The notes beneath the pieces are model-generated. The model saw only the letters and a list, made by a program, of their open reading frames with translations, was not told where the DNA came from and did no database searches. Source: Corbicula japonica (lineage: Eukaryota > Mollusca > Bivalvia > Venerida > Cyrenidae). From it: 64,000 bases of DNA. The DNA lies in NCBI GenBank assembly GCA_038501625.1, contig JAZAYU010000019.1, positions 7,227,285 to 7,291,284 of the forward strand, given 5' to 3'. The translations under genes were made by a program, and so were the position numbers. Below, piece by piece: positions 45,101-48,100 of this stretch. Position 1 is the first letter of the stretch; each line of letters begins with the position of its first letter.

Positions 45101-48100
45101 AGTATCTGCACTGTTTGCTTTTAGATCCAGGAGTTATTTTGATGCAAACATTGAAGATCCTGACCAGACAGCATTGATTTGCCAGCTGATCTGGATCTAC
45201 ACTGTTTGCCCACATGATAAAGGTGTATCTATGGAGTAAAGAGTTTTTGGGGTATTCTTTGTTTTGTTTAAAACTTCACAAAATCTGTTGTTTACAAATT
45301 TAACAAAATCATAGTTACAAGACTCCTGCTTTTCCTATATAATTTCATTACTAACAGGTTTAATTCCTATGAAGCTATACATATATTATTAATAAATTCA
45401 GAATGGTATGAATTACAAAAGCAGTTAACATGCTTTTGACTATGGGTATATCCACTTACTTGCTAAGCTATAGTTATTTACTTTTTCTCTTGAAGCGTAT
45501 GAAGATGACAAGAAAAACATAGAAAAGACCTCTCCAGACAAGGAGGAGAATAAGGATTACCATCGTCTCGACGAACAAGTGAACGTGTGTTTAGAATGCC
45601 AAGAAATAAACATTTTGAAAAGTTTGAAACGAAAAATCTTGAGACTTTCCTCACAAGCCACTGTGACACACCTGAAAAAGTTTGTGGCTTTAAAAGTGTT
45701 TGATTCAATAGACAGATACAAAGATGTAAGTATGACGTCACTTTTCATGAAGCAGGAGTGGGATTACTAATCGTTCCAACTGTGCTAAAAACCACCTGTA
45801 AAAAAATACCACCTTTATTTATCCAACTCACAATTTTAAAAAACAAATTCACTTGTTAACAAGTACTACCTGCCTCCAACAAACCACCTGCCTTCAAAAA
45901 CTACTAGGGTTTTCCAGTGTGTGGTCTTTGAAGACAGGTTTGACTGTTGTCGTGGTCTGTGTCTAGCTTTTCAGTCTGTTACATGTTTATGTTCAGTTAT
46001 CATTGACAGCATGGTAGGGAATGGCAGGGCTTTTTCAGGGGTTTTTGGGAAAAAGGCCCCTGCCCAAATTGGGAATTTTTGACGCTGTAAATAGACAAAT
46101 TTGGGAAAAAAAGTATCAACAAATCAAACCAAATTGGGAAATTTCAACATTCATTTATCTGCACTATAGCTTGATTTGCCTTGCTTTAGTGTTCCTGGAA
46201 ATGTCACAAATCTCTTCCAGGGTTTGTTCTGACAGCTTTACAGATGTATCACTTATACAGTAGAATGGCCATCATCTGATCCTTAGAAACTTGGCAAGTT
46301 TCAACTGACTGGGAAAGAACTTTTGAAACATTTGATGTTTTGTTCCACAGAGAGTTAAGTTTTGGAGTACCCTTGGCATCTTTTTTTCGCAGCCTTTTTG
46401 CCTAGTTTTTACTATTATACGACATTTTTAAATTTTCGTCACTAGTTTTCGCGGGTCAGTATACAAGCCGGTACTGCACATGCCATTTTTGATTCATCCT
46501 TCTGTTTTGTACGCAGTCGAACGATTATCGCGAAAAAACATTTGTTAACGAAATAAAAATATAATTTCTGTTAATATTCAAACCATAATTTGACCATAAT
46601 ATAAGTTATCTGGAATCATGGGCGCCGCGCTCCATCTTCAACTTGCGTTACGGTAAATACCGGTTTTTACACCAGCACATACATTTTTCATGGAAAGAAG
46701 TTTTCGCAGATCGCTAATAAACAAACGATTCGGGCTTGAAAAGTCTCGATATTATTGTTTCTCGTTTATCATTTTTAAAGACAAATGCGTTTCGGTTCAA
46801 AAGGGGAATAAATTTACGAGATCGGGAATTTTTTTCTTGAAATTGGGAAAAATGGTCGCTATTTTGGATTGGGAACGGGGCCGAATATTGGCCCCGTGAG
46901 ATAGGCTGAAAAAGCCCTGAATGGAGACCTTGAAACATCTTGAAAGAAAATTATTAGTCTTTGAATTACACCCTTGCAGTGAACCTGATATTTAGACCTT
47001 TTATTTTAACGAATTAACACCCCCACCCCCAATTAATGATCTTTAGGTGTCACTTCAGTATAAATAATAAACAAAATTAATGTTAACTGTAAACTAGCTG
47101 TTAAATTTTCAAAAAAACTTCTCATTGACAATTAGTAAAAAATACTTTTAAGCAAGTAGCAGCATCAGGAACATTTTTCAACAGCTTACATTTCAGTTTT
47201 TTATTTGAGAATCTTGGAGATGAGTCTAGAAATTGTGTTGTTCTTGCTACAGTCTTTAACATAAATGTTTATTTCAGATTGACATACTGTGCAACAATGA
47301 CCTGTTTATTTCAGATTGACATACTGTGCAACAATGAACTGTTTATTTCAGATTGACATACTGTGTAACAATGACCTGTTTATTTCAGATTGACATACTG
47401 TGCAACAATGACCTGTTTATTTCAGATTGACATACTGTGTAACAATGACCTGTTTATTTCAGATTGACATACTGTGCAACAATGAACTGTTTATTTCAGA
47501 TTGACATACTGTGTAACAATGACCTGTTTATTTCAGATTGACATACTGTGCAACAATGACCTGTTTATTTCAGATTGACATACTGTGCAACAATGAACTG
47601 TTAGGAAAGGACCACATGCTGAAGTTCATCATCGCAACAAGATGGAGATTAGCTGTAAGTTGTGATGTCTCTATTTACCTCTTTTGAGGAATTGTCACAA
47701 AAACTGCACTGCGGCATTATAATTGACAAAATTTTAATTTGTTGACAAAAAATAAACAGAGTTGATGTTTTTTTTATATATGAATAATGGTGTAAAATGT
47801 TGTCCAATTACTTAATATAAAAGTGAACAGTGTAAATAATGAATCAGTGCCACTTCTAGAATTATATTTTATATAGTCCATATTTTAAGCTATAGTAACT
47901 GTTATCATTAGAATTCTGAATCAGTAATGCTCCTAGAATTTGATTTCTGAATAAATTCGCCCCCCCCCCCCCCCCAAGAGTTTATAATTAAATAGAGTTT
48001 TAAATTCTAATGAGAATTTGTCCATTCTTTGGTTAGGCTTGTTTTGTTTAAATTCAACTTTGGTTGTTTTCAGGATGGACCTTTACTTCTGCATTACAGA

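Follow-up and report, generated by a model that had tools for sequence, protein, structure and literature searches.

In the bivalve Corbicula japonica, a tandem array of nine head-to-tail 37-bp units spans the junction of intron 5 with exon 6 in PCGF3, and each unit carries the same splice acceptor and the first bases of the exon. We propose that this array is probably a near-neutral "mirage," the term used in amphioxus for minisatellites that span exon-intron borders (PMC3087553), and that productive splicing goes to its last copy, with exon 6 starting at 47574. The array spans an exon-intron border and has a splice signal in its units, which are the structural features of a mirage. An earlier note had drawn attention to the array, but not to the fact that an arrangement of this type has already been published for amphioxus. 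The published mirages come from cephalochordates, whereas the closest named proteins here are from heterodont bivalves; a cephalochordate host is where mirages were described and is not part of their structure, and the present case suggests that they are not limited to amphioxus.

Positions are those of the window, the whole 64,000-nt stretch of DNA that was analysed (G000:C19:7227285-7291284), and the array lies in a 9.2-Mb contig of a 1.07-Gb assembly of 1630 contigs. The gene model has seven coding exons, separated by introns with GT/AG borders, that together give an open frame of 226 aa, and the protein contains a RING domain (PF13923, PF00097) and a RAWUL domain above the Pfam cut-offs. 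Judged by these domains and by the closest matches, which are to PCGF3 of heterodont bivalves (the top named proteins are PCGF3-like of Ruditapes philippinarum, 96%, Mactra antiquata, 92%, and Mya arenaria, 88%), the gene is PCGF3. No lesion was seen in its seven coding exons, and the frame past the last acceptor is intact. The features are as follows, with a slash marking the exon-intron border at donors.

39053 to 39161, + strand: coding exon 1, beginning with the start codon and encoding the first part of RING (gene model, Pfam)
39548 to 39644, + strand: coding exon 2, rest of RING (gene model, Pfam)
41403 to 41458, + strand: coding exon 3 (gene model)
44824 to 44886, + strand: coding exon 4 (gene model)
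45496 to 45725, + strand: coding exon 5, first part of RAWUL; donor GAT/GTAAGT, phase 0
47253 to 47277, + strand: native end of the intron, free of AG over 25 nt; TTAAC with its A (A47259) at −19 relative to acceptor 1
47266 to 47561, + strand: eight upstream 37-bp units, one acceptor each (repeat finding, unit reading, frame test)
47537 to 47573, + strand: AG-free zone of the productive acceptor, wholly inside the array; candidate branch points A47541 and A47559
47562 to 47598, + strand: ninth unit, with the productive acceptor, exon start 47574 and the Glu codon GAA (unit reading, protein alignment)
47574 to 47654, + strand: coding exon 6, 81 nt; donor GCT/GTAAGT (gene model)
48074 to 48118, + strand: coding exon 7 with the stop codon (gene model)

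Two protein matches, P0121 (97% over 88% of the queried region) and P0122 of Ruditapes, run past exon 5 in the frame of its donor and have no continuation into exon 6; the source of P0121 is a 1,093-bp JGI contig close to the studied species. Intron 3 holds a perfect AGGC tetranucleotide run of 124.2 copies (497 bp, 43616-44112).

Tandem Repeats Finder reports the repeat at 47266-47602 with a period of 37, 9.1 copies, 96% matches, no indels and a score of 632, and a unit-by-unit reading gives nine full units in a 333-bp array at 47266-47598. The ninefold 37-bp duplication described in the earlier note is borne out by nine units with nine identical copies of TTTATTTCAG; its span of 47259-47596 has borders that are off by a few bases, and the 21 nt of exon 6 that it assigned to each unit become 25 nt. 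The consensus consists of 12 nt of intron end, TGTTTATTTCAG, followed across the splice border by 25 nt of exon start, ATTGACATACTGTG(C/T)AACAATGA(A/C)C. Outside the array, TTTATTTCAG occurs nowhere else on the + strand of the window and not at all on the − strand. The nine exon starts lie at 47278, 47315, 47352, 47389, 47426, 47463, 47500, 47537 and 47574. Because the acceptor AGs are thus spaced 37 nt apart, and not three, the array does not belong with tandem acceptors of the NAGNAG type.

Only two sites vary between units. At one, T replaces C in units 3, 5 and 7, which would be silent if coding (TGC/TGT, Cys); at the other, C replaces A in units 1, 3, 4, 5, 7 and 8, which would turn Glu into Asp. 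Of 21 aligned proteins, 20 have Glu and one has Ala at residue 193, which is encoded at this second site; GAA is therefore the ancestral codon, from which the GAC in six upstream units is derived. GAA is kept in the ninth unit, as it is in units 2 and 6, and its retention at the array edge lends weak support to a mirage. Written as the two sites in order, the unit types from first to ninth are CC, CA, TC, CC, TC, CA, TC, CC and CA. Units 1-4 thus recur as units 5-8 with a single difference (99% over 148 nt), so that duplication of a four-unit block is likely. TGTT stands at both array edges, exon 6 running on as TGTTAGG after unit 9, which would fit slippage or microhomology at the start of the array.

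When exon 5 is joined to each of the nine acceptors, only the last yields the full 226-aa frame. From all eight upstream acceptors the frame runs through the tail IDILCNN(D/E)LFISD and stops after residue 198, 13 codons into the exon, where GAT is followed by TGA exactly as the earlier note had stated. The truncated protein keeps RING and gives no RAWUL match in Pfam (tested for the version with D). The usual distance rule for nonsense-mediated decay is 50-55 nt, and the decoy stops sit 76-335 nt ahead of the last exon junction (exon 6/7), so that all decoy products are predicted decay targets, in line with the earlier note, which had anticipated decay or the loss of most of RAWUL. No protein ending in LFISD occurs among 195 proteins gathered by similarity, none of them recognised as from the studied species and including the best 120 of 153 that passed in one protein search; LFIS is internal in three of the 195, which are unrelated at that spot. 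As for retrocopies that might bear witness to the splice, none of the 47 best genome matches to the PCGF3 protein looks spliced, six of them (at least 62% identity) lying in its own locus and the other 41 reaching at most 56%.

Each copy appears to be a complete acceptor module, since it comes with its own branch-point-like motif and an AG-free zone that is normal for this gene. Units 1-8 each supply TTGAC, which fits YTNAY, with its A at −33 before the next acceptor (acceptors 2-9); the motif is formed where the exon-like part of the preceding unit begins. Derived variants add ATGAC at −15 (GACC units) and GTAAC at −21 (T units). The AG-free zone is 37 nt per unit, as against 35, 28, 39, 22 and 37 nt at the five other acceptors of PCGF3 and 25 nt at acceptor 1. 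For 47574 the candidate branch points are TTGAC (A47541, −33) and ATGAC (A47559, −15). The branch point that the earlier note would have mapped upstream of 47259 is therefore better sought within the units, which carry YTNAY motifs of their own, the AG-free zone of the true acceptor being entirely inside the array. If the first-AG rule of acceptor choice (Gooding et al.) holds, 47574 would be within reach solely of branch points that lie in 47537-47573 or no more than about 15 nt upstream of that zone, with A47522 in unit 7 at the very edge of this limit.

What distinguishes the last acceptor is hardly its local sequence. Acceptor 2 is identical to acceptor 9 over 49 nt upstream and 29 nt downstream (78 nt), and acceptor 5 is identical to it over 133 nt upstream and 14 nt downstream; any model restricted to local sequence would have to score the three nearly alike, leaving place alone to separate them. 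RNA folding suggests no structural selector, because the array folds less stably than its shuffles (z +2.77; all 100 of 100 shuffles fold at least equally well).

We propose that the array grew by repeated tandem duplication of the intron 5/exon 6 border, perhaps beginning at the shared TGTT, and that the resulting units would act as complete acceptor modules with a branch-point-like motif, a pyrimidine-rich stretch and an AG. Exon 5 would then be spliced to the last copy at 47574 to give productive mRNA, the likeliest branch point being A47541, or else A47559, within the copy formed by unit 8. The exon-like bases of units 1-8 would in this way act as intron, and where joining to an upstream copy occurs, the RNA would be destroyed. 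The array would persist because use of the last copy is good enough, and not through selection. Use of the last copy is suggested by the amphioxus precedent together with the intact and conserved PCGF3 gene.

What speaks against this reading is that the native branch-point motif (A47259) is intact; under the first-AG rule it would feed the first decoy, away from 47574. Other reported cases point the same way. Among NF1 mutations that place a new AG in the AG-free zone, the new AG is reported to be used in two-thirds, with exon skipping in nearly half. For a BRCA1 tandem duplication from intron into exon, the cDNA is described as carrying the whole duplicated stretch including its intronic part, as amplified by primers specific to the altered allele and without quantification. 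In human segmental duplications, 66% of the intron changes ascribed to tandem repeats are reported to have support as well for transcripts whose exon retains the repeat. Taken together with the first-AG rule, these cases mean that decoy use may be substantial.

A rival reading is that the array works as a dosage dial, in which a steady share of decoy splicing would lead to decay, the copy number would set the level of PCGF3, and selection would keep or shape the array. The single unproductive outcome common to all eight decoys, the native branch-point motif kept at acceptor 1 and the nearly equal local sequence across acceptors 2-9 would all suit such a device. The amphioxus mirages, however, are reported without disturbance of splicing, and near-identical units together with dense minisatellites elsewhere are what neutral turnover would be expected to leave; we consider the dial unlikely. 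We give no better chance to a variant in which the copy number of identical modules sets the share of PCGF3 RNA that decays, with the branch point borrowed from the duplicated exon. A copy-number dial on PCGF3 is thus possible but unsupported, and were it true, comparison of acceptors 2 and 5 with acceptor 9 would isolate the effect of position alone.

The same preference for decoys under the first-AG rule could instead mean that array expansion has produced a recessive hypomorphic or null allele, that the sequenced animal is heterozygous for it, and that the assembly happened to choose the damaged allele. When 47200-47680 was searched against the assembly, the full stretch appeared once among the best candidates scored, so that a second haplotype is not seen. 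Bivalves are known for a high genetic load, which would also suit a damaged allele. The intact frame after the last acceptor and the seven coding exons without visible lesion argue against it, and we regard it as quite improbable. It would be more surprising still if the array were an assembly artefact and the real genome had fewer copies: the basis is a single assembly, but a 333-bp array is short and sits within a 9.2-Mb contig, and its units differ in an ordered way at two sites, a block of four units (148 bp) recurring at 99%.

A near-neutral mirage, which we prefer, has close counterparts in amphioxus. In the globin genes BflGb6 and BflGb9, minisatellite-like tandem duplication of an intron-exon border is described, with many units that hold splice signals and copies that are homogenised inside the array (PMC3087553). 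BflGb6 resembles PCGF3 in that a 3' intron end and a 5' exon part are repeated together; its units measure 150-160 bp and number 6 and 3 on two haplotypes, whereas those of PCGF3 measure 37 bp and number nine (PMC3087553). The globin mirages belong to a cephalochordate and were followed by RT-PCR and in two haplotypes (PMC3087553), and the PCGF3 array belongs to a bivalve and is known from one assembled sequence. Closer in unit length are the Adh3 mirages, with short units (10-72 bp) across an exon-intron border; they are said not to interfere with splicing, and length instability, even somatic, is reported for them (PMC3087553). The authors of that account hold that the Adh3 data and their own RT-PCR suggest no interference with regular splicing (PMC3087553), and the Adh and TnC mirages are stated elsewhere to yield no aberrant mRNAs (PMC3902484). 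Lancelet PGBD5 likewise has tandem repeats, of 60 and 108 bp, that include intron-exon borders and splice sites and differ in copy number between two sequence versions; unlike the PCGF3 units they are described as imperfect, and normal splicing is the authors' inference (PMC3902484).

Intron gain by tandem genomic duplication (PMC3443670) is alike in that a duplicated segment with splice signals becomes partly intronic, and differs in that the PCGF3 array lengthens an old intron and gains none. Use of a duplicated AGGT as both donor and acceptor, as in that route, does not apply here, since AGGT is absent from the array and from 47240-47660. The 22 GT contexts in 47266-47602 are ACT/GTGCAA (6), CCT/GTTTAT (6), ACT/GTGTAA (3), TGT/GTAACA (3), ACT/GTTTAT (2), AAT/GTTTAT (1) and ACT/GTTAGG (1). 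Across titles and the starts of abstracts in the open-licence literature, in searches that seldom specified mollusc terms, no mollusc array of this kind was found.

How one of several identical acceptors is chosen is usually investigated with engineered constructs. The PCGF3 transcript would offer nine natural acceptors, and numbers 2 and 9 match each other over 78 nt; the gene is a conserved Polycomb gene, and its reading frame flags eight of the acceptors as unproductive. The main value of the array would be as a ready-made experiment on whether the choice follows donor distance, the branch point or the order of the copies along the intron.

The array is striking by its place, not by its kind. 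A 200-kb sample of the same assembly (twenty hand-placed 10-kb stretches on 13 contigs, with 500 N; period 15-80, at least 2.5 copies) contains 29 arrays totalling 9,990 bp, or about 145 per Mb, which extrapolates to some 155,000 in the whole genome; with so many, some that start across acceptors would be expected unless selection removes them. Tandem TTTCAG triplets are common and modestly above control: three successive TTTCAG occur in 2150 + 2093 = 4,243 matches across the genome, many of which share an array, while the reversed pattern has 1061 + 1670 = 2,731, and the one match examined (L049) is a long satellite. At only one of 20 loci from the protein search, the PCGF3 array itself, does an array lie within 60 nt of the match; six of the 20 are PCGF3, and none of the 14 other exon loci, a small sample, has one within that distance.

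In the assembly, a 22-nt unit core with up to two mismatches occurs at twelve places, nine of them in the array and three elsewhere, one of which is exact. This exact copy (L050:524-546, from G000:C14:9937423 onward) covers 23 nt and its likeness stops after 28 nt, base composition predicting about 0.001 exact 22-nt matches; it may be a templated insertion or a coincidence. The search with 47200-47680 also gave ten weaker DNA matches, on C98 and C634, whose identity is 66-70% across some 270-330 nt, with E down to 1e-19. The satellites there, L002 (G000:C98, period 39) and L007 (G000:C634, period 37-44), are without exon evidence, and the longest exact words that they have in common with the PCGF3 array are 15 and 13 nt, respectively. 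We read the likeness as similar period plus chance words, and a remote relation is possible.

The window holds other repeats. Minisatellites lie downstream of PCGF3 at 52375-52509 (37 bp, 3.6 copies) and 52593-52761 (34 bp, 5.0 copies), and a further one at 5991-6301 (28 bp, 11.1 copies). Longer tandem arrays at 1853-3061 (146 bp) and 38075-38474 (142 bp) resemble, by eye, one repeat family in opposite orientation. At 21215-22930 lies a long open reading frame of the reverse-transcriptase type that contains a YADD motif, and we take it to be probably a non-LTR element.
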